A DNA stretch of 25,942 bases, taken from the NCBI GenBank assembly GCA_009921765.1, contig RFXC01000033.1:1-25942 (forward strand), written 5' to 3'. Both the position numbers and the translations under genes were made by a program. Positions 6,689 to 23,600 of the stretch are shown one piece after another; position 1 is the first letter of the stretch; every line of letters starts with the position of its first letter. This DNA is from Betaproteobacteria bacterium. Its GTDB lineage: Bacteria; Pseudomonadota; Gammaproteobacteria; Burkholderiales; Burkholderiaceae. Below the pieces are notes generated by a model. That model saw nothing but the letters and a program-made list of their open reading frames with translations. It searched no databases and was not told where the DNA came from.

Positions 6689-9015
<2,327 letters not shown>

Positions 9016-9036: not shown

Positions 9037-9459
9037 ATGGCCAACACGATCCAGGTTGACGTTGTCAGCGCCGAGGCTTCGATCTTCGAGGGCCAGGCCG
9101 AGTTCGTGGCATTGCCGGGTGAATCGGGCGAACTGGGCATCTATCCCCAGCATACGCCGCTGATCACCCGCATCCGCCCCGGTGCGGTTCGCATCAAGGT
9201 GGCCGGTCAGGCAGACGAGGAATTCGTTTTCGTCGCGGGCGGCATTCTCGAAGTGCAGCCCAACCGGGTCACGGTGCTGGCCGACACGGCCATTCGCGGC
9301 CAGGACCTGGACGAGGCCAAGGCCGAGGCAGCCAAGAAAGCGGCTGAAGAGGCGCTCGCCAATCGCGCCGGCGAAATCGATTACGCCAAGGCACAGGCCG
9401 AGCTGGCCTCGGCCGTGGCCGAACTCGCCGCGCTGCGCAAGTTCCGCAACAAGCGCTAG
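9037..9459 (+). CDS. atpC: ATP synthase F1 subunit epsilon
   Basis: The 140-residue protein has an N-terminal beta-sandwich ([15 protein letters not shown], then [14 protein letters not shown]) and a C-terminal helical hairpin rich in Ala, Lys and Glu, as in proteobacterial epsilon subunits. It joins gamma to the c-ring, and its helices can inhibit ATP hydrolysis. It is the last gene of the operon and is followed 23 bases later by a hairpin terminator. Confidence 0.96.
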
Positions 9460-9482
9460 GCTCGCGTCGCGCCAGTGCGCCG

Positions 9483-9514
9483 GGCGGGGCGGTTGAGCCC
9501 CGCCTGTCAGTTTT
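9483..9514 (+). terminator. Intrinsic terminator of the atp operon
   Basis: GGCGGGGC (9483-9490) and GCCCCGCC (9497-9504) form a perfect 8-bp stem around a six-base loop. TTTT follows at 9511-9514 after a short spacer. It stands directly after atpC, so it probably ends the atp transcript. The T-run is short and set back, so termination may be partial. Confidence 0.7.
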
Positions 9515-9625: not shown

Positions 9626-10975
9626 ATGCCGGATACGCTTGCACCCGCCGCACCGCGGCCCCCCCTCGGGCAACACGCCTCCGATCCCAACAGCGCCACG
9701 CTGACCTTGCCGCGTGCCGCGCACGCCGCGAATCACCGTCGTGCCGAGCCGCCAGTCGATCCGCCGCGACCGTTGGTCGTATGCATCGGAACGCGGCCCG
9801 AGATCATCAAGATGGCGCCGGTCTGCCGGGAACTCCGGCAGGCCGGCCTGCCGATGCGGCTCCTTCATACCGGCCAGCATGTCGAACTGGCAGGCCCCAT
9901 CTATGACGCACTGGGGCTCGCACCGGACCAGGCGCTGCACCTCGAACGCACAGATGACGGCATTGCCTCGCTTGCAGCCGGTTTGCTGCGCGCTGTCGAT
10001 CCGGTGCTCGTGCAATGGCGGCCCGCTGCGCTCCTGGTGCATGGCGATACCAGTAGCGCAGCCATGGCCGCGCTTGCCGGCTTCTGGCGCGGCGTGCCGA
10101 TCGCGCATGTCGAGGCGGGACTGCGCTCGCATCAGCCGCGGGACCCCTTCCCCGAGGAGCTCAACCGGACGCTCATCGCGCGGGTGGCGACCTGGCACTT
10201 CGCGCCGACCCAGGCCGCAGTCGCCAACCTGCGCGCCGAGGGCATCGCGGCGCGCGCGATCTACCCGGTTGGCAACACCATCGTGGAGGCGACGCACCAG
10301 GCGCTCGAGCGGCTGGACGCAGCCGGACCACTCGCCGCGAGCCGCCCCGGGGCGAAACTCGTTCTCGTGACGGCGCATCGGCGCGAAAACTGGGGCGCGC
10401 CGATTCGCGGCTTTATCCGCGCCCTGGGCGCCGTGCTGTCCGCGCACGCCGACCTCGAGGTGGTCTGGACCCTGCACGCGAACCCCGCCCTCGCACGCGA
10501 TGTGCGCGAGGCCCATGCGGAGCTTCCGCCCGAGCCGGCCGCGCGTCTGCACCTGGTGCCGCCCCTCGACTACCTGAGAATGATTGCGCTGCTTCGCGCC
10601 GCATGGCTGGTGTTGACCGACTCGGGCGGGATTCAGGAAGAGGCGTGTGCGCTTCGCGTGCCGGTTCTGGTGCTCCGCCATTCCACCGAGCGCCCGGAGC
10701 TGATTGAAGCGGGCGCGGGTCGACTGATCGGCACCGACCCGCTTCGTGTCGCCGCCGAAATCGAGCGACTGTGGCGTGAGCCCGCGATCCATCATGCGAT
10801 GCAGGCCGCGACCAATCCGTTCGGTGACGGCGCCGCCAGCCGGCGGATCGCCTCGGTGCTCGCGCAGTGGTATGCCGGTGCCGGTCAGACCGATGCGGCG
10901 CGCGCGCGCGGACCCGCCTCGCCCCATGGCGGCCCGCCCACCGTCGCACCGGCCCGCGTGAGCCCCGCTGCATGA
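9626..10975 (+). CDS. wecB: UDP-N-acetylglucosamine 2-epimerase (WecB family)
   Basis: WecB-type enzymes interconvert UDP-GlcNAc and UDP-ManNAc in the cytoplasm. The family signatures are all present: GTRPEIIKMAP at 55-65, HGDTSS at 139-144, HVEAGLRS at 161-168, HRREN at 251-255 (with the catalytic His) and TDSGGIQEEA at 331-340. At 449 residues it is longer than the usual 370-380, because of a roughly 48-residue Ala/Pro-rich N-terminal extension and a Pro/Ala-rich C-terminal tail. The start is supported by AAGGA at 9615-9619. Its stop overlaps the next gene by ATGA, which suggests the epimerase supplies UDP-ManNAc to the neighbouring glycosyltransferase, as WecB does for the E. coli NfrB pathway. 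Enzyme class is sure; product use is inferred. Confidence 0.92.
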   Translation: MPDTLAPAAPRPPLGQHASDPNSATLTLPRAAHAANHRRAEPPVDPPRPLVVCIGTRPEIIKMAPVCRELRQAGLPMRLLHTGQHVELAGPIYDALGLAPDQALHLERTDDGIASLAAGLLRAVDPVLVQWRPAALLVHGDTSSAAMAALAGFWRGVPIAHVEAGLRSHQPRDPFPEELNRTLIARVATWHFAPTQAAVANLRAEGIAARAIYPVGNTIVEATHQALERLDAAGPLAASRPGAKLVLVTAHRRENWGAPIRGFIRALGAVLSAHADLEVVWTLHANPALARDVREAHAELPPEPAARLHLVPPLDYLRMIALLRAAWLVLTDSGGIQEEACALRVPVLVLRHSTERPELIEAGAGRLIGTDPLRVAAEIERLWREPAIHHAMQAATNPFGDGAASRRIASVLAQWYAGAGQTDAARARGPASPHGGPPTVAPARVSPAA

Positions 10976-12567
10976 TTGCCGCGCCAGAGAGTCTGATGGA
11001 CGCGGGCGCGTGGCTCGTCTCAATCGAGGGCGCCTACGCCCACGCGCTCGGCGGCGCGCTCCTCGCGCTTGCGATCGTCTACCTGCTCTCGGGGCTCGAC
11101 GATCTGCTGATCGATGCACTCTACTGGCTGCGGGCCTTTCGTCGCGCCACCTGGAAGCGCGGCCGGATCCGCTCGCTGCCGCCCGAGACGCTCACCGCGC
11201 GGCCCGAGCAACCGGTCGCGATCATGATTCCCGCGTGGGATGAGTCCTCGGTCATCGAGCCGATGCTCGCCCGCCTGGCCCGGACGATCGACTATCAGCG
11301 CTATCGGGTCTATGTCGGGGTCTACCCCAATGATCACGCGACCCGTCAGGCCGTCGGCCGCGCGGCAGCGTTGGATGCCCGCATTCGCACGGTGGTGCTC
11401 GACCATGATGGCCCGACGGTCAAGGCTGATTGCCTGAATGCCATCTGGAGCGCGATTCAGCGTGACGATGCGGTGCAGGGCGAGCCCACCGCAATCTATG
11501 TGATGCAGGACTGCGAGGATGTGATCGATCCGCTCGCCTGCCGCCTCTTCAACTGGCTGATACCGCGCAAGGACATGGTCCAGCTGCCGGTGTTGTCGCT
11601 GCCGCGGCGCTGGTGGGAGTTCACCGCAGCCCATTATCTGGACGAGTTTGCGCAACAGCATCTGAAGGATCTGGTGGTGAGAGAGGCGCTCGCGCGCGGG
11701 CTGCCGGCCGCGGGCGTGGGCGTGGCCTTCAGCCGGCGTGCGCTCCTTGGCCTCGCCAGGGCGGAGCCATCGGGTGTGCCCTTTCGCACCGACTCGCTCA
11801 CCGAGGACTATGACCTGGGCCTGCGCCTCCAGCGACTGGGCTTTCGCCAGATCTTCGCGCGGTACTGGGTGACCCGCGCCGGCGTGGCCTATCACGGCAA
11901 GACCGGTGAGGTACGCCCCGATCACCGACGCGACCTGGTCTGCATCCGCGAGTATTTTCCGTCGACCTTGCGGGCGGCGGTCCGCCAGAAGGCGCGCTGG
12001 GTGGTGGGCATCGCACTGCAGGGATGGCGGACCTGGGGCTGGCGCGGCGACTGGCTCAGCCGATATCTGTTTGTGCGTGATCGCAAGGTGTTGGCGATGA
12101 GTCTGGTCGCGCTCGCGGGATATGGGGTCTTTGCGCTTCTGCTGGTGCAAGGGCTCTGGCTGCGGTTCGACTCGGGCGTCTGGATGAGCCCGGTGCTGCC
12201 TGATCCGACGGGATGGCTGTCGGCCCTTCTGGTGGCCAACCTTGCGCTGCTTGCCGTGCGCGCGTTTCAACGGGCCCTGTGCACCGGGCTTTTGTATGGA
12301 CCCGCGCAGGCGGTGCTGTCGCTGCCCCGAATGGTCTGGGGAAGCCTCATCAACATCCTCGCCACGCTGCGCGCCTTGCGCCAGTGGCTCGGGCATCTGT
12401 ACAGCGGCCAGCCGATCGGCTGGGACAAGACCGTTCATCAATTTCCGGATGCTGCACCGGCGCCCGAGTTCGTCCTGTCGGTCGTGCCGGTCGCGCGGCC
12501 GGCGCCGCCAGACGGCGGCCCCGCGGCATCCACCTCCCCTTTGCCCAACGATGGAGTCCGACGATGA
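10972..12567 (+). CDS. nfrB: NfrB-like processive membrane glycosyltransferase
   Basis: This 531-residue GT2 protein has an N-terminal membrane helix (about 27-46) and a cytoplasmic catalytic domain. Motifs are the nucleotide-sugar QDCED at 179-183, TED at 277-279 and QKARW at 339-343 (the QxxRW of processive synthases). Two or more membrane helices follow (about 374-393 and 414-432). The sequence style and the end of the catalytic part (GWDKTVHQFP, 483-492) match NfrB, the E. coli inner-membrane transferase that makes the phage N4 receptor glycan. E. coli NfrB is about 745 residues and continues with a c-di-GMP-binding region; here only a Pro-rich tail of about 40 residues follows. The ATG at 10972 overlaps the epimerase stop and is preferred over an upstream in-frame start at 10867. 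Confidence 0.85.
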   Translation: MIAAPESLMDAGAWLVSIEGAYAHALGGALLALAIVYLLSGLDDLLIDALYWLRAFRRATWKRGRIRSLPPETLTARPEQPVAIMIPAWDESSVIEPMLARLARTIDYQRYRVYVGVYPNDHATRQAVGRAAALDARIRTVVLDHDGPTVKADCLNAIWSAIQRDDAVQGEPTAIYVMQDCEDVIDPLACRLFNWLIPRKDMVQLPVLSLPRRWWEFTAAHYLDEFAQQHLKDLVVREALARGLPAAGVGVAFSRRALLGLARAEPSGVPFRTDSLTEDYDLGLRLQRLGFRQIFARYWVTRAGVAYHGKTGEVRPDHRRDLVCIREYFPSTLRAAVRQKARWVVGIALQGWRTWGWRGDWLSRYLFVRDRKVLAMSLVALAGYGVFALLLVQGLWLRFDSGVWMSPVLPDPTGWLSALLVANLALLAVRAFQRALCTGLLYGPAQAVLSLPRMVWGSLINILATLRALRQWLGHLYSGQPIGWDKTVHQFPDAAPAPEFVLSVVPVARPAPPDGGPAASTSPLPNDGVRR

Positions 12568-12791
12568 AAGCGAAGTCAATCTCTGATCGGTCAACCCGCA
12601 TCGCGCAGTGGTTCGTGCCCTGCGTTGCAGTCGTCGGAATGGTTGGTTGTGGCGGGGTCGAATCGCCGCCAGGCCGCACCGACGCTGCAACCGCTGCCAC
12701 AGGAAGCCGAGTCGCTTGCGCTCGAACGCGGCAAGGCCGCGCGAATCGCGCGATAGGTCGCGCATCCCGATCCCGAAACAAGGAGTCATGA
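12564..12791 (+). CDS. Small lipoprotein, possible frameshift
   Basis: The ATG overlaps the nfrB-like stop by ATGA. The peptide has a basic N-terminus, a short hydrophobic stretch and a lipobox-like VGMVGC with Cys29, so a small lipoprotein is likely. As written, the frame runs 75 residues to 12791 through an odd Arg-rich tail. If one G of the GGGG run at 12654-12657 is removed, the frame reads CGGSNRRQAAPTLQPLPQ and ends at TAG 12754-12756 with a more natural composition and third-position GC. Either a sequencing indel or a real frame change is likely. Its function is unknown; the position suggests a part in glycan export or modification. Confidence 0.6.
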   Translation: MKAKSISDRSTRIAQWFVPCVAVVGMVGCGGVESPPGRTDAATAATGSRVACARTRQGRANRAIGRASRSRNKES

Positions 12792-12793
12792 TC

Positions 12794-14515
12794 ATGTCCA
12801 CGTCTTTTCTTTGGTTGCGCCGGCGCCTGCTGACGCTTCTATTGGTGGGCCTTGCGCTGTCGCTCGCCCTTGCGCTGCTCGCCGCGCCTGCGCGCGCGCA
12901 GCAGGGGCCGCCTGTGCTGGTTCTGTACGACGCGCCCGCCGGTTCGCCCTATGCCAAGCTGGGCCGCGCCTACGCGATCATGCTGGCCAATCTGCTGGGG
13001 CGTTGGGATGCGCAGGTGGTGACCCAGCCGGTCGAGACCTACCGCGCCGGCACGATCGCGGGCTATCGGGCAACCTTCTATCTGGGGTCGCATTACGACA
13101 ACCCGCTGCCGGCCGCACTGATCTCGGATGTTGCGACCACCACCAACACGGTGGTCTGGTTCCGCTACAACCTGTGGCAGCTGTCGCAGACAGCAGGGCT
13201 CGACCTGGCCGCGAAGTTCGGCTTCCGGTTCGTGGCCAATCGCGGCCTCGAGGGCAGCCCGGCCGCCAGCACCCCCGACTTCTATGACACCGTGCACTAT
13301 CGGGGCCAGGCGCTGGCCAAGTACTACGCGTTCGATGCGGTGGGCAATCGGGTGTTTGCCGATCCCGATATCGGCCTCACCGAAGTCGTCGATCCGGCTC
13401 GGGTACGGGTTCACGCAGACATCGAAAACCGGGCCAACGGCGCGCGCGCCCCGTATGCCTTGCAGGCGGGAAACTTCTGGTACGTCGCCGACATGCCGTT
13501 TTCGTACATCGGTCCGCGTGACCGCTATCTGGCGGTTGCGGACCTTCTGCATGAGGTGATGACACCCGGTGCTCCCGCGCCGAGCGCGCCGCGGCAAGCG
13601 CTCATCCGGCTTGAGGATGTGAGTGCGCTCACCGACCCGGCTCATCTCGCGACGCTGGCTGCGCTGATGCAGCAGTGGCAGAACCCGGATACCGGAAGCG
13701 CAACGCCGATCCCGTTTTCGATCGCGCTCATCCCGCGCTACCGCGATCCGCTTGGCATCTACAACGGTGGCGTCGCACAGGACATCAGGCTGCGCAATGC
13801 CCGGGCGTTAAAGCCCGCGCTCAACGATGCACTCGCGCGCGGTGGGCGCCTGGTGATGCACGGCTGGACGCATCAGTACTCGAATGTTCGCAATCCCTGG
13901 TCTGCCGTGAGCGGCGATGATTTCGAGTTCTGGGACATCGTGAACAACCGGCCGCTGCCGAAGGATTCGCTGCGCGACTGGCGCAGCTACATCGATGCCG
14001 GCATCAAGGAACTCACCGGCGCAGGCTACACGGCGTTTGCCTTCGAGCCGCCGCACTACCGGGCATCGCCCCGCGCCTACCGGGCCGTGGCCGAACGCTT
14101 CCGGGTGGCTTACGAGCGCGCGCATTACTACACCTCGGAGTCACCGGTGCTGGATCCGAATTCGAGCGTGCGCGATTTCGCGGTCGGCCAGTTCTTTCCC
14201 TACCCGATTCAACGCGACTGGTACGGGCGCAAGGTGCTGCCGGAGAACCTGGGCAACATCGAGTACGACATCTCCGAGATCGACCCCAGCTCGAATCTGA
14301 ACTATGGCTGGGAAGAACTCGCGCGCAATGCCGAGGTGCTGCAGGCGGTGGTGCGTGACGGTACAGCATCCTTTTTCTTCCATCCGTTCTGGCTCGGAAC
14401 CTTCACGCGGCCCGATGGCAGCGTCTACCCGATCGATGCGCTGGGGGACCTCCGACGGTTGCTGACCGTGATCGGCCGGCTAGGCTTCCGGTTTGCCGAC
14501 CCGACTGCACTGTGA
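12794..14515 (+). CDS. Secreted DUF2334 polysaccharide-deacetylase-like protein
   Basis: The 573-residue protein has a signal peptide (hydrophobic core about 12-30, likely cut after ARA at residue 35). Its N-terminal region (about 37-260) has no named domain that I recognise. A DUF2334 domain follows at about 268-545. In it, LIRLEDVSA, HGWTHQ (the H-x-x-x-H metal motif of NodB-type deacetylases, near residue 355) and EPPHYRAS resemble the three deacetylase motifs. It probably removes acetyl groups from, or otherwise modifies, the periplasmic polymer made by the NfrB-like enzyme, much as PgaB does for PNAG. ATG 12794 is chosen over ATG 12788 because AGGAG at 12781-12785 is spaced correctly only for the former. 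The substrate is inferred from context. Confidence 0.8.
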   Translation: MSTSFLWLRRRLLTLLLVGLALSLALALLAAPARAQQGPPVLVLYDAPAGSPYAKLGRAYAIMLANLLGRWDAQVVTQPVETYRAGTIAGYRATFYLGSHYDNPLPAALISDVATTTNTVVWFRYNLWQLSQTAGLDLAAKFGFRFVANRGLEGSPAASTPDFYDTVHYRGQALAKYYAFDAVGNRVFADPDIGLTEVVDPARVRVHADIENRANGARAPYALQAGNFWYVADMPFSYIGPRDRYLAVADLLHEVMTPGAPAPSAPRQALIRLEDVSALTDPAHLATLAALMQQWQNPDTGSATPIPFSIALIPRYRDPLGIYNGGVAQDIRLRNARALKPALNDALARGGRLVMHGWTHQYSNVRNPWSAVSGDDFEFWDIVNNRPLPKDSLRDWRSYIDAGIKELTGAGYTAFAFEPPHYRASPRAYRAVAERFRVAYERAHYYTSESPVLDPNSSVRDFAVGQFFPYPIQRDWYGRKVLPENLGNIEYDISEIDPSSNLNYGWEELARNAEVLQAVVRDGTASFFFHPFWLGTFTRPDGSVYPIDALGDLRRLLTVIGRLGFRFADPTAL

Positions 14516-14526
14516 GGCCGACCCGG

Positions 14527-15954
14527 ATGAGCAAACAGTCGGGACGCCGCGCAGTTCAGCGGCCCAGCGTGTGGGCGACGACCGTGCTGGCTTCGGCGTT
14601 GTCAGCGTCGCACGTGCTTGCGCAGGCCCCACCCTCGAATCGGGTGGAGTCTGCGCAGGCCGCGATGTCGGCGGAATCCAGCCGCGAGCGCTGGGCCGAG
14701 CGGCGCGCCCGCGCGCATACGCGAGCGCTGCAATCGGACTGGACGGCGGCCGCCGAAAGCTTCAGCGAACTCGCGCGCGAGACGGGTGATCCGGGCGATC
14801 GCCTGGCCGCCATGCGCTCGTTTGCGCAGGCGCAGCGCTTCGAGCAGGCGATTGCCGAGGGCGAGCGCCTGATGGCAACCGTATCGGGCTTGCCGGAGCG
14901 CGATCGCCGCGATGCGTTCGCCGAGCTCGCCAATCTTCACGAGTCGCAGGGTTATCGGTTGCGCCGCGCGGGCGAGGCGCGACGTGCGGCGCTTGCCTTT
15001 GAACGCGCCTATGAGCTGGACCGCGATCGGGTGCGGCTCCTTGCCGAGGCGGGCTATGCCCGGCTCGCAGCCGGTGATCGTGCGCTGGCGGCAGACCGGT
15101 TTGTGGATGCCATCGACCGGCTGCCCGAGACGGTGACCTCCGACCGCGCGGTCTCGGCAGACCCCGGGGATGAGTTGCCGCTTCGCGAGCGGCTGCGACG
15201 CGAGGTGCTTGAGGCGCGACGGGTGTGGACGCTGTCGGCCTTCCAGGCCTGGCGACCGCGCGGGTCGGGGCCCGGCGCGGGCGCGGGCACTGTGGGTTTG
15301 CAGCGCGACGGCCTGATCGCGGCGCAAGGCGGTGCGGAGCTTGCACTTCGCCTGCCCGAGATGCGAAGCGAAACAGGCGCCCGGCAGGCCGATGTGTTTG
15401 CCCGGGCATTGTGGTCGCAGCGCGGCGACTCGCTCGAAATCAACGATCGAAGCGTCCAGGGCGGTGCGGGCGTGCGCTGGCAGCCGGTGATCGGTTCGGC
15501 CTGGCGGGTCACCGCAGAGCGTCTGATCGCGATTGGCGAGGACGCACGCAATGACTGGCTGCTCCGTGTGGCGTGGGGCGCGATGGTGGGCGATCAGCCC
15601 GCGCCCGGCCGGCGCTACTGGCCTGCCGGGCAGCTTTACATCGAGGCCGGACGGTTCTTTGAGAATGGCGGCAGCACGGCGATGTATGGCGAGGGTCGCT
15701 TCGGCCTTGCGACGACACTGGGCGACGGCTGGATGTTGACCCCGCATGCGGTGGTGGCCGCGCGCGAAGTGCGGCCGGACCCGGGCGCAGAGTCCTGGGC
15801 CGAGGCGGGCTTGGGTCTTGCGCTTCGGCGTGCGTTTGGCGGCACGCCCCACAGCGCCGACCGGGGGCGGTTTGAATGGATCATGCAGTATCGGCTGGGT
15901 ATCTCTGGCGCCGGGCGGCAAGGGTGGCTGTTTGCCGCCTCCATCCTGTGGTGA
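14527..15954 (+). CDS. nfrA: NfrA-like outer-membrane export protein (TPR plus C-terminal barrel)
   Basis: This 475-residue protein has a signal peptide (likely cut near LAQA at 31-34). An Ala/Arg-rich helical region with TPR-like pairs follows (about 55-200), then a beta-rich C-terminal half ending in Trp, as outer-membrane barrels do. The segment ERLIAIGEDARNDWLLR (331-347) resembles the NfrA C-terminal domain. E. coli NfrA is about twice as long, so the TPR part is shortened here. It probably exports or displays the glycan. The start could be GTG 14512, overlapping the upstream stop, but ATG 14527 has GAGG at a suitable distance. The role is inferred from homology in style and from the gene neighbours. 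Confidence 0.78.
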   Translation: MSKQSGRRAVQRPSVWATTVLASALSASHVLAQAPPSNRVESAQAAMSAESSRERWAERRARAHTRALQSDWTAAAESFSELARETGDPGDRLAAMRSFAQAQRFEQAIAEGERLMATVSGLPERDRRDAFAELANLHESQGYRLRRAGEARRAALAFERAYELDRDRVRLLAEAGYARLAAGDRALAADRFVDAIDRLPETVTSDRAVSADPGDELPLRERLRREVLEARRVWTLSAFQAWRPRGSGPGAGAGTVGLQRDGLIAAQGGAELALRLPEMRSETGARQADVFARALWSQRGDSLEINDRSVQGGAGVRWQPVIGSAWRVTAERLIAIGEDARNDWLLRVAWGAMVGDQPAPGRRYWPAGQLYIEAGRFFENGGSTAMYGEGRFGLATTLGDGWMLTPHAVVAAREVRPDPGAESWAEAGLGLALRRAFGGTPHSADRGRFEWIMQYRLGISGAGRQGWLFAASILW

Positions 15955-16069: not shown

Positions 16070-17395
16070 GTGCGCCGACCCAACTTCATTTTCATGGTGG
16101 CCGACGATCTGGGTTATGCCGATCTCGGCTGCTATGGCGGCCGGCCCGCCGACTTCGGACCGGTGTCGCCGGTGCTCGACAGCCTGGCGGCAGGGGGGTT
16201 GCGTTTTACCCAGGGCTACAGCAATTCGCCGGTGTGTTCGCCGACCCGATTTGCGCTCATGACCGCCCGCTATCAGTACCGTCTGCGCGGGGGTGCCGAT
16301 GAGCCGATCAACAGCCGCAGCAAGGGCAGTGCGGTCCTGGGCTTGCCGCCCGAGGTGCCCACGCTGCCGTCGATGCTGCGTGCGGCGGGCTACCGCACGG
16401 CGCTGATCGGCAAATGGCATCTGGGCTATCCGCCCCATTTCGGGCCGCTCCGCTCGGGCTATGAGCAATTCTTTGGCCCGATGTCGGGCGGGGTCGACTA
16501 CTTCACGCATTGCAGCAATGCCGGCAGCCACGACCTGTTCGAGGGCGAAACCGAGCGCCATGAGCCGGGCTATCTGACCGACCTGCTGTCGCGCCGCGCA
16601 GTGCAGTGGGTGCGCGAGCGCGCCGCTCACGCGGCGAGCGACCAGCCGTTTTTCCTGAGCCTGCACTACACCGCGCCGCACTGGCCCTGGGAGACCCGGG
16701 ACGACGCCGCGCTCTCGGCGTCGGTTCGATCCAACCTCTTTCATCTGGACGGCGGCAACATTCAAACCTACCGCCGCATGATCCACCACATGGACGAGGG
16801 CATCGGCTGGGTGGTGCAGGCCTTGCGCGAGACCGGGCAGCTCGACAACACGCTCATCGTCTTTACGAGCGACAACGGAGGCGAGCGCTTCAGCGACAAC
16901 TGGCCGCTGGTGGGCGGCAAGATGGACCTGACCGAAGGCGGCATCCGGGTTCCCTGGATCGCGCACTGGCCGGCGGGCATCGCGCCAGGCGGGGTCTGCG
17001 AGCAACTGTGCATGACCATGGACTGGTCGGCGACCATGCTCGAGCTTGCCCAGGCGCGGCCACCGGCCGGGCACGTGCTGGACGGCGTATCGCTTGGCGC
17101 TGTCTTGCGCGACCCCTCGCGCACGATGCCGCGCGACCTGTTCTGGCGCATGAATCATCGCGGGCAACGCGCGCTGCGTCAGGGCCCCTGGAAATATTTG
17201 CGGGTGGATGGGCATGACTACCTGTTCGACCTCTCGCGCGACGAGCGCGAGCGCGCCAACCTGGGCAAGCGCGATCCCGACCGGCTTGCCGCGATGCGTG
17301 AGACCTGGGAGCAGTGGGAGAAGAGTGTCCCGCCCATTCCGCCCGATGCGGTGGTGAGCCTGGGGTATTCGGAGGCGGATATGCCGAGGCGGTGA
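16070..17395 (+). CDS. Sulfatase (formylglycine-dependent arylsulfatase family)
   Basis: The 441-residue protein has the sulfatase signature. The first metal site is in VADDLGYADLG (Asp12, Asp13). The formylglycine motif is CSPTR with Cys56 and Arg60. GKWHLG follows at 114-119, and the second metal site is TSDNGG with Asp268 and Asn269, then Lys284. Sulfatases hydrolyse sulfate esters after the Cys is oxidised to formylglycine by FGE or an anaerobic maturase, neither of which is in the window. No signal peptide is seen, so it may be cytoplasmic, or exported by an unseen route. GTG 16070 is supported by GACAGGAG at 16055-16062. It follows the glycan export genes and may act on a sulfated sugar; the substrate is unknown. 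Confidence 0.9.
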   Translation: MRRPNFIFMVADDLGYADLGCYGGRPADFGPVSPVLDSLAAGGLRFTQGYSNSPVCSPTRFALMTARYQYRLRGGADEPINSRSKGSAVLGLPPEVPTLPSMLRAAGYRTALIGKWHLGYPPHFGPLRSGYEQFFGPMSGGVDYFTHCSNAGSHDLFEGETERHEPGYLTDLLSRRAVQWVRERAAHAASDQPFFLSLHYTAPHWPWETRDDAALSASVRSNLFHLDGGNIQTYRRMIHHMDEGIGWVVQALRETGQLDNTLIVFTSDNGGERFSDNWPLVGGKMDLTEGGIRVPWIAHWPAGIAPGGVCEQLCMTMDWSATMLELAQARPPAGHVLDGVSLGAVLRDPSRTMPRDLFWRMNHRGQRALRQGPWKYLRVDGHDYLFDLSRDERERANLGKRDPDRLAAMRETWEQWEKSVPPIPPDAVVSLGYSEADMPRR

Positions 17396-17400
17396 GGCGG

Positions 17401-18127
17401 TTACGTAGACGGTTTGAATCGGCAGCTCGGTGCCAAGCGAATCGCGGCACCGGATGCGTAGCCGCCGGATCAGCGTTTCGATGCGTCGATAGTCGAAATT
17501 TTCCGGCTGGGCACCCTGGCTTTCAACCAGGCGCTCCTTGGTCAGCACCTCACCGGCGGGCTGCATCAGGGCCTGCAGCAGCAACCGCTCGGCGTGCTTG
17601 AGAAGAAGCCCCTGCCCGTTGGGCGCGGTGAGCATCCAGGTTTGGGTGTTGAGCTGCCAGGCGGGCTGCCTGGCGGCAAGCGCGGCGTTCGGTTGCCTCT
17701 CGGCGCGGCTCGCCGAGGGCGCGCCGACTCTGGCAAACAGCCGCTTCACATGAAGCGCGAGCTCTTCCAGCGGAACCGGCTTGACGAGATAGGCATCGGC
17801 ACCGGCGCGCAGCCCCTCGAGTCGCTGCGCCGGCGCGCCGCGCGCGGTGAGAATCAGCACGCCACGATCGCCGAGCACGCCGGATTCCTGTAGCCACGCG
17901 AGCGCGTCTCCGTCGGGCAACCCCAGATCGAGGATCAGGACGTCGAAGTCGTTGGCCTCGCACCAGGACTGTGCCTGTGCCAGGCTGCCGACGCCGCTGA
18001 TCGCGACCGCGTCCAGCGACAGATAGGCGACGATTGCCTCCCGCAGATCGGGCTCATCTTCAACGATCAGCACGCGCGCAGGCCGATCGGGGCTCAGCGG
18101 CGTGGGATGGGTTGTGGCCGGGTTCAT
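17401..18127 (-). CDS. OmpR-type response regulator with abnormal C-terminus
   Basis: The receiver domain (about 18-132) has the acidic pocket Glu23/Asp24, phospho-acceptor Asp67 in LILDLGLPDGD, Thr94 and Lys116. A winged-helix domain of Trans_reg_C type follows (about 155-241), with recognition helix RRIETLIRRLRIRC. Instead of the usual GxGY hairpin after IQTVY (residues 237-241), the frame reads VTASPP and continues without a stop to 15881, wholly antisense to the sulfatase gene. In a neighbouring frame the same bases read RFKPST and stop at TAA 17403-17401, five bases from the sulfatase stop. That ending resembles the normal end of such regulators, so a small deletion or indel is likely. 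It is translationally coupled (ATGA) to the kinase upstream. Confidence 0.82.
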
Positions 18128-20205
18128 GGGCTCGAGGCGCTGGCGGTATCGGGGAACCAGACGGTAAAGATGCTGCCGAGGCCCGGCTCGCTCACCAGCT
18201 CGACCTCACCCTGATGCTGCTCGGCAATGAAGCGGACCAGGCTCAGGCCCAGGCCGATGCCGCTGACCGGGCCTTCGGGCTGGATGCGGAAGTATCGATC
18301 AAACACACGCGGCTGCAAGGCCGGCTCGATGCCCACACCCTGGTCACTGACCCGCAGGCCGACCATCCGGGTGCCGCCGGACCCTGTTTTCGAGCAGGTT
18401 CCGACCTCGATCGAGGTGTGGGCCGGGGAGTATTTGCAGGCATTGGTGAGCAGGTTCATGAGAACCACTTCGAGCAGATTCGGATCAGCCCAGATCGTAG
18501 TCGCGTCGGGGGCAATGTTCCAGCGAATCTCGTGCCCGTCAAAGCCGTCGGGCTGCTTGCTGATGAACTGCGCGAACCAGGCCGCGCAGTCGATCGGCTC
18601 ACGCTCGGGCGGTGCGGGCGTATTGAGCAGCTGATCGGACTTCAGCCAGGTATTGGTGAGCTGCGCGAGCCGCGCCACGTGGCTGCGGATCACCTGGGTA
18701 CGCTCGGCGATGCGGGGGTCGATTGCCTGTTTGTGGAGCACGTCGGACTGGGCCGAGATCACATTGAGCCCGTTTCTGAACTCGTGCGATACCAGCGCCG
18801 CGAACCTGAGGTATTCGGCGAGCGTCCGTCGCTCGCGATCCGCCGCGTCGGCGAGCGCCCGGGTCCGCGCCTCGACCGATTGTTCGAGGCGCTGCTCTTG
18901 CGACCGCAGGTCTTCGATCATGGTCTGTTGCAAGGCAAGGCGAACGCGCCGCTCCTGCCGAACGATGCTCGCGAGCATGAAGGCAAGGAGCAGCATCTCG
19001 ATTGCGGTGGCGATCTGAACCGCGTAATGGGTGAGCGTCGTGCTGGGGACCCAGCCGACGACGCGAAGGGTGGCAACCAGCACGCCCACGCCGAGCACCG
19101 ACCAGCTCAGCATGAAGAAACCCGTGCCGGGCAGGGCGAGCGTCCGAACCTTCCAGGCGGCGATGCTCACCAGCGTCACACCCAGCAGGCCGAGCGCAAA
19201 CAGGCACTGGAACAGGGCTGCAGTCCAGTCGCCGCGGCCGGCGCTCAAAAACATCAGGCCCGCGCAGATTGCGGCGAGTACCGCGGTACCGACGATGATT
19301 CGGTCGCCCCAGCGCGGCAGGGTGTGCCGGGTCTTCAAAATGGTTCGGACAAACAGCAACAGCGTGGTGACCGACAGCGACAGGAAAATGCCGGGCGATA
19401 CGCCATCGAATTCGGTCTGTCCCGGCCAAAAGAGGATGCTGCCCCAGCCGTTGCCGGTGAGCATCCCCAGGCTCAGCATCGTTCCGTAGAGCGCGTACAG
19501 ACCGAAGCGCGCATCGCGAAGCGACACGCCGATGAAGCAGGCGTGAAGAATCATGGCGAGCAGCGCGCCGTGGTAGAGCGCCTGAAGCAGTCGCTCGTGG
19601 AGCGCATTTCGGGCATACGCTGGCTGGTGCCAGGCGCGCAGCGGAACACTCACCGCATAGTTCGAGGCCACCCGGAAGTAGAAGTCTTGCGGGCTATCCG
19701 ATACCGCGACCGGAAACGCGAAGTGCTGGCTGAGCACCGGCCGGTTTTCAAGCGGGCGCCCATGTCCGGTTTGCACGACCGGCCGACCCGGCGCATGAAA
19801 ATCGATCAGCCTGTTGTAGGCGTAGGGAATATCGAGCACCCATGCCGACGGGGCGGCGGCGCTGCGCTGCAGGCGCACCCGAATCCACCAGGCCGAGGCA
19901 CTGAAGCCGAGATTGACGTCGCCGCGGGATGCGTCCCAGGGGACAAACCGCGACTGCGCCGAGGGCGCCAGAACCTGCTCCAGCGTGAGCGCACCATCGG
20001 GGTCCTCGAGCAACCAGACCGCGTTGGCCAGGTTTTCGCTGGGCAGCGCGAGCGTTCGCTCGGGCGCTGCGGCGGCCACGGCCGCCACGCACGCCAGACA
20101 CGCGGCGAGGCCTGCCGCAACGCTCGCGATCAGGCCCCTGATCGTGCCCGTGATCCGGCCTCGGAGCGGCCCCGCCCAACAGGATTGGAGATTTCGAACA
20201 CGCAC
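18124..20205 (-). CDS. Sensor histidine kinase with 7TMR-DISM input
   Basis: With the GTG start at 20205 the protein has 693 residues. It has an Arg-rich N-terminus and signal-like hydrophobic stretch, then a periplasmic 7TMR-DISM extracellular-type domain (about 50-190). About seven membrane helices (roughly 205-430) and a coiled linker follow. The HisKA domain has His474 in SHEFRNGL, and the HATPase domain has Asn588 (N box), DQGVGI at 621-626 and GIGLGL near 649. The HEFRN box also fits the HExxN pattern linked to phosphatase activity. The frame is open upstream to a TTG at 20346, but the extra 47 residues look non-coding and fall in AT-richer promoter DNA. It forms a pair with the following response regulator; the signal is unknown. 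7TMR-DISM sensors often read carbohydrate-related cues, which would suit the glycan neighbours. Confidence 0.87.
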   Translation of the reverse strand: MRVRNLQSCWAGPLRGRITGTIRGLIASVAAGLAACLACVAAVAAAAPERTLALPSENLANAVWLLEDPDGALTLEQVLAPSAQSRFVPWDASRGDVNLGFSASAWWIRVRLQRSAAAPSAWVLDIPYAYNRLIDFHAPGRPVVQTGHGRPLENRPVLSQHFAFPVAVSDSPQDFYFRVASNYAVSVPLRAWHQPAYARNALHERLLQALYHGALLAMILHACFIGVSLRDARFGLYALYGTMLSLGMLTGNGWGSILFWPGQTEFDGVSPGIFLSLSVTTLLLFVRTILKTRHTLPRWGDRIIVGTAVLAAICAGLMFLSAGRGDWTAALFQCLFALGLLGVTLVSIAAWKVRTLALPGTGFFMLSWSVLGVGVLVATLRVVGWVPSTTLTHYAVQIATAIEMLLLAFMLASIVRQERRVRLALQQTMIEDLRSQEQRLEQSVEARTRALADAADRERRTLAEYLRFAALVSHEFRNGLNVISAQSDVLHKQAIDPRIAERTQVIRSHVARLAQLTNTWLKSDQLLNTPAPPEREPIDCAAWFAQFISKQPDGFDGHEIRWNIAPDATTIWADPNLLEVVLMNLLTNACKYSPAHTSIEVGTCSKTGSGGTRMVGLRVSDQGVGIEPALQPRVFDRYFRIQPEGPVSGIGLGLSLVRFIAEQHQGEVELVSEPGLGSIFTVWFPDTASASSP

Positions 20206-20666
20206 GGCGCTGGAGTCTACCCGGGCTCGCGCGGCACACCTACCGTAACGTGATTCGCCATCCGATTCCGATGCGAATTGGTCGAAATTTGTCGAAATTG
20301 AGGGGCAGACGAATCGAGGCAAAAAAGGCAAAATTAACGAATGCAATCTTTTCCGTGATTTATCTCTGGGAGTTCGACTTCGCCTGAAGGTTTTTCGAGC
20401 GGGCAGACACCGTCTGCACTGTCGATTTGGAGCACGGCATCGGCGTCATGGCCCATGCCGTTTCCGTGCTTTCTAAAAAGCATGGCTGCCGGGTCGATTG
20501 CCAAGGGTCTGCGCGTTTCAGTTGCTGTCGACGTTTACACACGAGTTGTCGCCATGAAGTTTGCACCGGTTTTCCCGATCGAGTCTGATGTGCCCGCCGC
20601 GCAAGTGCGCCCGGTGGATGCAGGCCCTGTAGCGGCCAGCCCGCGCGCGGCAAAGGAATGCCTCAA
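20206..20666. promoter_or_regulatory. Divergent intergenic region between kinase and giant repeat protein
   Basis: These 461 bases separate two divergent genes. Bases 20270-20375 are clearly AT-richer than the surroundings and contain a 10-bp tandem repeat, GTCGAAATTT/GTCGAAATTG, at 20281-20300. This is the likely site of promoters for both genes and of regulator binding. I found no convincing -35/-10 pair, riboswitch or terminator. A short frame, 20554-20670, overlaps the next gene by ATGA but has no clear ribosome site. Confidence 0.5.
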
Positions 20667-23600
20667 ATGAGCCAGAGCAAACGATTCAAACGGTGGTCTC
20701 CCAAGGGGCGACGGCTCGCGTGGGCGCGCAATCGTGCCAACGTCGAGCGGCTCGAAGACCGGGTGCTGCTGTCAGCCGAGCCCATGGTGCAGCAGTCTCG
20801 GCCGGAGCTCGAAGAGTCGATCGAAGCGGCCAATGTCACGCTCGAAATTGGTGCACGGCAGTCCGACCTGCCCACGATCGATGACTTCTCTGCCGGCGCA
20901 ACCCGAATCGACCTCACGCGCGGGGCGACACAAAACGCGCAACTTGCGAGCGGCGGCGGAAAGCTGCTGGAACTCAACAACCCGCTCGCCAGCCTCATCA
21001 TCGACCTGGGTGCGGGCGACGATCAGGTTCAACTCTCGCAGCAGTCCGATGGCCGCCTGAAACTGTCCGGGGGATCCGACCTCTACGAACTCGTCTTTGC
21101 CAAGCCCACGTCGGTCCTCGCCATTCGCGGCCTGGACGGCGTCGACAAGGTCACGCTCGACAGCCTCTCGCTCGATACCGCATCGCTCATGGTCGAGGGC
21201 GAATCCATCTCGCTTGCGGGCGGGAAATCGCTCACCGTTGGCGGCAATGTCCAGCTGCGGGCCGAGGACCGGCTGGAGGCCGACGAGCTCGATGATCCCG
21301 CAGAGCTGAAGGCGTCTGTCGTGATTGACGGCACCATCCGCTCGGGTGGCTCGGTGGTGCTGCAGTCACTGGTCTCGGCCAATATCGCCCTTGACAGCAC
21401 CGGCGTCCTGGCCAATCTCGATCTCGAAGCCAGCACGTCGGCCATTTCGCGGATTGGCGCAACCGCGCTGATCCAGGCGCAGGCGCTCGAGGTTGTTGCC
21501 ATCACCGACAACCGGCTCTCGGCCCAGGGCGAAGGCGGCTTCGGCCTGGTCAACATCACGGCCTCGCAAACCACCTCAGCGGTGGTTGCCGGGGGCGCGA
21601 AGCTCGTGATCGACGCCGAGGAGGACAGCGAGGGCATCGACATCCTCATCGAAGCGGTCGACACCAGCCGGTATGCGGCTGCGCTCGATACCGCGGGCAG
21701 CCTGGTCTCGGCCTTTACCGGGGGCTTCGATCTGGGCATCAGCCAGATCGAGATCGTGCGCAACACCCAGGCCCTGTTGGGCGATGGCGGACTCGAGGTC
21801 TCGGTGGGTGCGCCCAAGAACGGCAACGCGCCCTCCATCCAGGTGTCGGCAGCCTCGGTTGATGCCGAGCCCGATGAGTCCGAAGAGGAGCCCGGCGCCG
21901 GCATCGACGGATCGGTCGAATCCAATCTCGTGGGTGTCCAGACGGTCGATGTGGTCGACAACGTCATGGCGATCGTGGCCGGTGCCGACATCGATGCGTC
22001 GGCGCTCAGCATTTATGCGCTGAGCGGCAGCACCGTGAGCTCGCGCGCCAAGGTCGCCAAGATCAACGCTTCGGGCACCACCGAGGTCCGCCTGTCCGAG
22101 GCAGTGGTGAGCGCGCCTGGGGCAGTTGCGATGGTTGCGCGCGATGAGTCGGTGTATGCGGCAGAAAGTGCCGGCTTCTCGGCCGAACTTCCGCTGGTGA
22201 AAAGCATTCAGATCGCGATTGCGGCAGCGAGTGCCACAGTCGATCGCGTGGTGCGCGCGCAGGTGTCCGAGGCCGAGGTTGATGCGGGTGACTTTGCGGT
22301 CATCGCGAGCAACGAAGGGCGCCTCAGTGCGCTCACCGAGTCGATGGCCGTGACCGGCGATGCGGAAGAGGCCTCGTCCACATTTTCGCTGTCGATGGGC
22401 GGAACCGTGGCCTGGACGCAGCTGACCGGTGCGGTTGAAGCGCTGGTTGAAAACAGCACCGTTACCGTTGGCGACGAAGGCAACATCGTGGTCGATGCGC
22501 TCAACGCGAGCGAGCTCGAGACCACCACGTCGGCGGGCAGCACAGTGACCAACGCGCCGGGTGCCGCGGGCGGCATCACGCTTGCATTCAACGCCGTCGG
22601 CTGGGACATGGGCAACATCGCGCTTGCCGGGCTCAATGCGCTGCTCGGCACCGATCTGCTCACCGACGAGATTCCGCTTCGCACCGAAGCCATCGTGAGC
22701 GGCACCGACCTTGCCGCGGGCGGCGACATCACGGTGCGTGCGATCGACTCAATCTCGCTCACCGCCGAAATCAGCAACGAATCCGAGACCGATGCCGGGG
22801 CATCCACCGGATCTGCGGTGGGCGCCTCGGGCATTCTGGCGAGCAACCGGGTGCGGTCCGAAACCCGTGCGCTGATCCGGGGCCATGATGATGACGATGC
22901 GCCGCTGGTAAGCATCGTCGCGGGCGGTGCGGTCACCGTCGAAGCCGAGGATGAGTCGGCGATCGAGGCCGAGGTCACCATGACCGCATCGGCCTCCTCG
23001 AGCGGATCGGCCGTGGCGGTTGGCGGCATCATCGTACGCAACGACATGCGGGCGGGCGTGCTGTCGTCGGTGACCGATGCGGCCGTCGAGGCCGATGGCG
23101 ACCTGTCGGTCACGGCCACCTCGGATGCCTCGATCACTGCCACGCTGAGTGGCGAGGTCAGTGCCAGCAGCGAATCCGAATTCGGTGATTCGGCTGAAGC
23201 CGATGCCGGTGCCGACGCGGGCGCCGATGCCGGTGCAGACGCTGGCGCCGATGCCGGAACCGATACCGGCGCCCCGGCCGCTTCCGGCTCGCTGTCCGTC
23301 AATGCGCTGATCGCCAACAATCTGGTGCTCAACACAGCCGAAGCCGAGGTGCTCGACAGCGAGCTCACGGTATTGGGGAGCTTTGGCGTCGAGGCCGAAA
23401 ACATCTCCACGATCGAGGCGAGCAACAGCGCCACCACCGAGAGCACGGGCGGCACTGCCGCTGGCGTCACGCTCGCCTTCAACACCATCGGCTGGGAGGC
23501 GCAGAACATCCTCTTTGCCGCCATCGATGCGCTGCTCGGCACCAGCATCGGTGATGAGGATCCGGCCGAGGTGCGCGCCGAGGTCGCCCGCACCTCGTTC

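Follow-up and report, generated by a model that had tools for sequence, protein, structure and literature searches.

In Escherichia coli, NfrB, NfrA and YbcH work with WecB in the N4 glycan receptor (NGR) system, in which NfrB is a glycosyltransferase family 2 (GT2) synthase and WecB provides UDP-N-acetylmannosamine (UDP-ManNAc). Nfr clusters of Pseudomonas, Simplicispira and Achromobacter were described in 2021, some with wecB beside nfrB and with accessory modification or secretion genes, including O-acetyltransferase-type genes, a BcsB homolog and diguanylate cyclases (PMC8669469, PMC8669472). These two papers already report that wecB is linked to nfrB, that ManNAc is the donor sugar and that O-acetylation accessories occur. 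The composition of the glycan is postulated in them, without a solved structure, and their text passages on accessory genes name no deacetylase or DUF2334 gene. Here, a locus of this kind is described in a 25,942-nucleotide (nt) stretch, hereafter the window, of a Burkholderiaceae genome deposited as Betaproteobacteria bacterium (contig RFXC01000033.1, assembly GCA_009921765.1). The locus probably encodes a synthase-dependent exopolysaccharide system of the NfrB/NfrA kind that is fed by UDP-ManNAc and includes a periplasmic N-deacetylase of the DUF2334 family, the substrate and activity of which we infer. It comprises five genes on the plus strand, between ATP synthase genes and a sulfatase gene:

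9626..10975, plus strand: wecB, non-hydrolysing UDP-N-acetylglucosamine (UDP-GlcNAc) 2-epimerase, the UDP-ManNAc maker (PF02350, TIGR00236)
10972..12567, plus strand: nfrB, processive GT2 inner-membrane synthase of 531 amino acids (aa) (profile matches, catalytic residues)
12564..12791, plus strand: lipoprotein gene remnant, a 75-aa open reading frame (ORF) (comparison with sister genomes)
12794..14515, plus strand: DUF2334 (YdaL-type) secreted protein (PF10096, predicted model, conserved residues)
14527..15954, plus strand: nfrA, encoding a short NfrA (PF13283); the ORF is also open from a GTG at 14512

An earlier note, made from the letters alone, had read five consecutive, overlapping genes here, for an epimerase, a processive GT2 enzyme, a small lipoprotein, a DUF2334 protein with an HxxxH motif and a protein with an NfrA-like C-terminus. 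The overlaps can be read in the sequence (ATGA at 10972 between wecB and nfrB and at 12564 between nfrB and the small gene, GTGA at 14512 at the DUF2334/nfrA junction), and all of the assignments hold except that of the small lipoprotein gene. WecB matches PF02350 at 318 bits and the NCBIfam profile TIGR00236 at 357.5 bits (cut-off 210). NfrB matches PF13641 (123.7 bits) and NCBIfam PRK14716.1-3 (429 bits, cut-off 409), falls narrowly below PRK15489 (534 bits, cut-off 537) and does not reach the NfrB equivalog PRK11234 (470 bits against a cut-off of 1170, over profile positions 13-475 of 723). In a six-sequence alignment that includes E. coli NfrB, the DxD-type, TED and QxxRW motifs are present, and the GT2 residues D180/E182/D183, T277-D279 and Q339..R342-W343 are invariant between the two proteins; the sequence of NfrB matched no solved structure at E up to 0.001. 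The DUF2334 protein scores 134.5 bits against PF10096 (cut-off 26), and NfrA scores 64.8 bits against NfrA_C, PF13283 (cut-off 25). The profile search proposed in the note thus found both NfrA_C and NfrB-type matches, which leaves its reading of these two genes standing.

The strongest support for an Nfr module with a DUF2334 enzyme comes from related loci. A scan for YdaL-type loci, with one genome per species, gave 165 pattern matches, of which 96 were confirmed and 80 kept; 54 of these 80 loci contain at least one of wecB, nfrB and nfrA. Among the 43 wide loci (at least 8 kb on both sides), all three partners are present in 28, wecB and nfrB in 1 and none in 14, and the 37 cut loci include 13 with all three, 12 with one or two and 12 with none. 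The gene order is wecB-nfrB-nfrA-small gene-DUF2334 in Comamonas, nfrB-nfrA-wecB-small gene-DUF2334 in Ralstonia, wecB-DUF2334-BcsB-like gene-nfrB-nfrA in Ramlibacter and DUF2334-wecB-nfrB-nfrA in Halopseudomonas, and in Microbulbifer wecB and nfrB are divergent from DUF2334. In a class-level sample that yielded 369 of the 400 genomes requested (YdaL threshold E up to 1e-20), YdaL-type proteins were found in 7 genomes, NfrA_C in 7 and both in 5, with 0.13 expected (hypergeometric p of 7.9e-9, or 3.0e-7 without the window's genus, phylogeny ignored); in three of the five genomes, the two lie within 10 kb of each other on a single contig. Across Burkholderiales and some gammaproteobacteria, long YdaL-type DUF2334 proteins are therefore tied to wecB, nfrB and nfrA, in varying gene orders. 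A search of open-access article text, without figures and supplements, found no DUF2334-Nfr link, and this tie appears new, as does the window's variant without MshEN and YbcH. A wecB gene within such a cluster is a common, already published feature and does not set the window apart; of the two, the DUF2334 enzyme is less well documented. Other genes also recur in the 80 loci: DUF4434-type genes in at least 20 by clustering (scores in the two clusters scanned were 185.6 and 153 bits, or 29.9 and 29.6, just under the cut-off of 30; one locus outside these clusters, L063, scores 131 bits), BcsB-like genes in 9 loci and glmS-type genes in 4, each type identified from a single scanned member.

The DUF2334 ORF is open from 12788 as well as from 12794, and the latter start is favoured because AAGGAG lies at 12780-12785; residue numbers given here count from 12788. 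The predicted model, with a predicted local distance difference test score (pLDDT) of 90.7, consists of an N-terminal amidotransferase-like domain and a C-terminal (beta/alpha) domain of the carbohydrate esterase family 4 (CE4) type. R274, E276, D277, H358, H362, E420, H423 and H532 do not vary across an alignment of 51 sequences, of which the window's is one, and the HxxxH motif corresponds to H358-x3-H362. In the model, E276-D277, H358/H362 and H532 sit at or beside strand ends, and we take them to fill the CE4 roles of metal site, base and distal histidine acid. Foldseek ranks NDST1 first and ArnD third among the structures similar to the model, both of which act on amino sugars. DUF2334 is the sole Pfam match of the protein, with no match to Polysacc_deac_1 at E up to 1. 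The fold and motif set bear out the suggestion of the earlier note that the operon includes a deacetylase-like enzyme. A protein search returned 877 DUF2334 relatives among 7998 candidates scored, and the 120 listed are mostly 540-585 aa long and often named YdaL by the Joint Genome Institute (JGI). A viral structure library yielded 4 DUF2334 matches at E up to 0.001, with low template modelling scores (TM-scores).

The JGI name provides the likeness to the ydaJKLMN genes of Bacillus subtilis and the pss genes of Listeria, and suggests a parallel with the Gram-positive YdaL/PssB systems. PssB is listed as deacetylating the ManNAc exopolysaccharide of Listeria (PMC6307706), and ydaLMN are described as essential for the exopolysaccharide of B. 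subtilis (PMC13274460); the main text of a paper on Listeria cyclic di-GMP (c-di-GMP) mentions neither PssB nor a deacetylase (PMC4125290). B. subtilis has a PF10096 match in a control search, which does not imply that the matching protein is YdaL. These organisms are Gram-positive and hence lack an outer-membrane NfrA. The poly-N-acetylglucosamine (PNAG; PgaABCD) and Pel systems differ from the window's in synthase family and in predicted sugar, and no Pga or Pel family matches were found among the eight window proteins scanned.

The presence of wecB was surveyed in five genomes of the nearest genus (G001-G005; 190-520 contigs each), a set that excludes the window's own assembly; G002 is 78% complete, and G003 is 97% complete with 8% contamination. 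A wecB search gave one match each in G001, G004 and G005, at the locus (the piece in G001 scores below the cut-off because it is cut by a contig end), a remnant in G002 and none in G003. With a single wecB, located at the locus, the epimerase looks dedicated to the Nfr module, as predicted by a published rule whereby wecB sits next to nfrB in genomes that have no other copy of it (PMC8669469). The earlier proposal of a self-contained module with its own sugar-nucleotide enzyme agrees with this pattern. An alternative is that the operon makes another product, with WecB feeding a different pathway and the synthase taking a different donor. Donor specificity is unreadable from sequence, and the window's NfrB is 38% identical to that of E. 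coli; however, wecB accompanies the locus in the sister genomes and was found nowhere else in them, and it lies near 11 of 12 Nfr loci outside the genus, with nfrB of the twelfth running into a contig end, so that this alternative appears very improbable.

Several observations weigh against an Nfr module with an N-deacetylase, the first of them from the surveys. The 14 wide YdaL loci mentioned above have no partner nearby; nine, judged by record names, are extra copies alongside a partnered locus in the same genome, and NfrA_C is found elsewhere in the genome for the remaining five and for one cut locus (6/6). The 80 loci are also not independent, since one genus contributes several of them and the window's genus four. 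In an order-level draw of 300 genomes, NfrA_C was found in 13, 12 of which have no YdaL-type match, and a strong YdaL-type match was found in the window's genus only; the two weak YdaL matches are both in genomes without NfrA_C, and 19 of the 20 genomes with PF10096 above the cut-off carry other DUF2334 proteins. DUF2334 is therefore no core Nfr part, and a general occurrence of DUF2334 in Nfr loci was rejected. The presence of YdaL predicts Nfr far better than Nfr predicts YdaL. The genes thus do co-occur, which leaves the reading of the earlier note standing on this point, but only when one starts from YdaL.

Other observations against this reading concern the enzyme itself. Global TM-scores are low (0.31 for NDST1), and a fold is no proof of activity. 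The structure matches also include allantoinase, glycoside hydrolase family 57 (GH57) amylases, a CE4 pseudoenzyme and a virus turret protein, with esterases too among those of the CE4 type, and the DUF2334 alignment matched no solved structure by sequence at E up to 1. The protein could thus belong to the polymer pathway without being an N-deacetylase, acting instead in O-deacetylation, in chain cleavage, or in binding or guiding the chain as a CE4-like pseudoenzyme or scaffold. This is unlikely: the invariance of E276/D277, H358/H362, E420/H423 and H532 would be unexpected for a pseudoenzyme, and the amino sugar activities of NDST1 and ArnD point to N-deacetylation. It does draw on the breadth of the structure matches and on the possible presence of O-acetyltransferases in published Nfr clusters (PMC8669469, PMC8669472).

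The remaining points of this kind concern the integrity of the module. Its small gene is broken: the start-to-start distance from this gene to DUF2334 is 224 nt in the window versus 475 nt in G001, the nearest relative, that is, 251 nt are missing, and because the sequence beyond the deletion is out of frame, the 75-aa ORF ends only accidentally at the DUF2334 start. Whole lipoprotein genes are present in G001 (147 aa, open and stopping before the DUF2334 ribosome-binding site) and G005 (157 aa), and the gap in G004 is too short for one. By this comparison, the window's ORF reads as an internally deleted, out-of-frame lipoprotein copy, not a normal gene. Small proteins ahead of DUF2334 are encoded elsewhere (about 107 aa in Comamonas and about 152 aa in Ralstonia), with no kinship to the window gene implied. 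NfrA is short, at 475-480 aa depending on the start (ATG at 14527 or GTG at 14512), and its closest relative (97% identity) has 475 aa and begins at the ATG corresponding to 14527. The predicted NfrA model (mean pLDDT 71.5) has tetratricopeptide repeat (TPR)-like helices to about residue 236, followed by about 12 long strands that are modelled at low confidence; there is no TPR Pfam match. The structure matches listed for NfrA are filled by TPR proteins, so that the missing PgaA- or PelB-like barrel among them is not evidence, and by sequence, solved structures gave weak matches only. Finally, the module genes evolve faster than atpD (ratios of nonsynonymous to synonymous substitution rates, dN/dS, of 0.086-0.289 versus 0.009 and 0.036).

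Such features could mean that the module is decaying in the window's lineage and may no longer export a polymer. The broken lipoprotein gene, the absence of MshEN and YbcH, and the reduced NfrA (a frame of 480 aa versus 1087 aa in G004) fit this alternative, as does the fate of the locus in the sister genomes. G004 has the entire locus at the same atpC-adjacent site, and in G001 and G005 it is split over contigs, with wecB of G001 and nfrA of G005 partial; only the C-terminal half of nfrA is left in G003, where the match to the window skips from 9633 to 15184, reflecting one deletion of about 5.5 kb, and only wecB and nfrA fragments are left in G002 after several deletions. The module is thus lost or decayed in two of the five. 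Conversely, in comparison with G001 the four main genes have dN/dS of 0.06-0.20 (wecB over 173 codons and DUF2334 over 496, owing to contig ends), and the range of 0.086-0.289 applies to wecB, nfrB and DUF2334 against G005 and G004. The module is under constraint, weaker than for a core gene, and the low ratios argue for real, used genes. The protein search, which lists only proteins up to about 840 aa, returns many short NfrA relatives, and G004 keeps the remaining module genes whole without a lipoprotein gene, so that decay in the window's lineage seems quite unlikely. A chance assembly of ORFs was rejected on the curated profile matches and low dN/dS of the four main genes, and no known defence system was found, with 0 PADLOC matches at E up to 0.01 for four proteins.

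Compared with E. coli NGR, the window shares the GT2 synthase with identical catalytic residues, an NfrA with NfrA_C and a predicted layout of TPR-like helices and strands, and WecB for UDP-ManNAc. Unlike the E. coli system, it has wecB in the operon and a DUF2334 enzyme, and NfrA is about half as long (990 aa in E. coli). No profile match to the c-di-GMP-binding MshEN domain was found in the window's NfrB, which stops short of where the domain would lie, whereas E. coli NfrB matches in the same library; an NfrB from another YdaL locus, L083, has no match either. MshEN is usual, not universal, being reported on 1,705 of 1,841 NfrB homologs, and YbcH is dispensable for N4 infection in E. coli (PMC8669469). 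E. coli YbcH is a DUF4434 protein (235 bits); the window's operon has no such gene, and DUF4434 was found in none of the five sister genomes. In the 35 YdaL loci for which both genes could be read, each of the seven short NfrBs (507-569 aa; L056, L063, L071, L075, L083, L116 and L119) pairs with an NfrA ORF of 1078-1377 aa, 27 loci combine an NfrB of 646-820 aa with an NfrA of 542-957 aa, and the remaining one (L055) is cut; the window, with both proteins short, is an exception to this pattern, which relies on heuristic ORF calls, with MshEN itself checked in few of these NfrBs.

The preferred reading, a UDP-ManNAc-fed Nfr module with an N-deacetylase, draws on the observed gene content, homology, predicted fold, conserved residues, co-occurrence, lack of a second wecB in the sister genomes and purifying selection. 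WecB would convert UDP-GlcNAc to UDP-ManNAc, the likely donor by analogy with E. coli genetics, and NfrB would polymerise it and move the chain across the inner membrane. The DUF2334 enzyme would reach the periplasm via its N-terminal helix and N-deacetylate some of the residues through a metal-dependent CE4-type mechanism, with E276/D277 and H358/H362 as base and metal site and H532 as acid; the TPR-like helices of NfrA would then guide the chain and its putative barrel would export the polymer. The reaction, the residue roles, the polymer as substrate and its export are what we infer, and it is reasonable on these grounds to suppose that a ManNAc polymer would be partly deacetylated. DUF2334 is almost without literature, being named by one paper in the open-access text searched, and its tie to wecB, nfrB and nfrA gives it a testable substrate and reaction. 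The tie points to a deacetylated ManNAc-type polymer that would stand beside PNAG and Pel, and since the Nfr glycan is a phage receptor of postulated composition, a dedicated modifying enzyme offers a way to probe both its structure and phage sensitivity. Tail fibres with a predicted deacetylase domain are described for N4 and Vequintavirinae (PMC8594841) and for other wecB-dependent phages (PMC8594841, PMC8669472), and this domain may act on the Nfr glycan. A tentative and rather doubtful extension is that the YdaL-type enzyme serves the host by editing the glycan that phages use as receptor, and that module loss in the sister species reflects the same phage pressure. If so, N-deacetylation beforehand would yield a cationic ManN/ManNAc polymer, alter surface adhesion and deny phages their substrate.

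The module is flanked by the following features:

7615-9015: atpD, ATP synthase gene, upstream flank
9037-9459: atpC (F1 epsilon), ATP synthase gene, upstream flank
9481..9506, plus strand: terminator-like hairpin between atpC and wecB
16070-17395: sulfatase gene (PF00884, 195 bits)

Given the hairpin between atpC and wecB, the module may be a separate transcription unit; the hairpin scan is weak, with 2 overlapping sites in the region versus 3.2 expected by chance. The sulfatase gene (dN/dS of 0.155 against G001) was rejected as a module member and is probably a neighbour only, because it stays in G002 and G003 after module loss. A locus in the YdaL set, L054 (CAMBZS010000286.1, a metagenome-assembled genome [MAG]), which is the nearest relative's contig, is titled Bordetella parapertussis; it groups near same-genus 'ErkenSummer' MAGs, and the label may be wrong. 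Further downstream, a sensor kinase with 7TMR-DISM and HATPase domains is encoded on the minus strand at 18124-20346. Five ORFs scanned on the minus strand at about 20660-25942 have no Pfam match; parts of 23394-25309 have matches at several sites in G004 and G005, and this region possibly encodes a large repeat surface protein.
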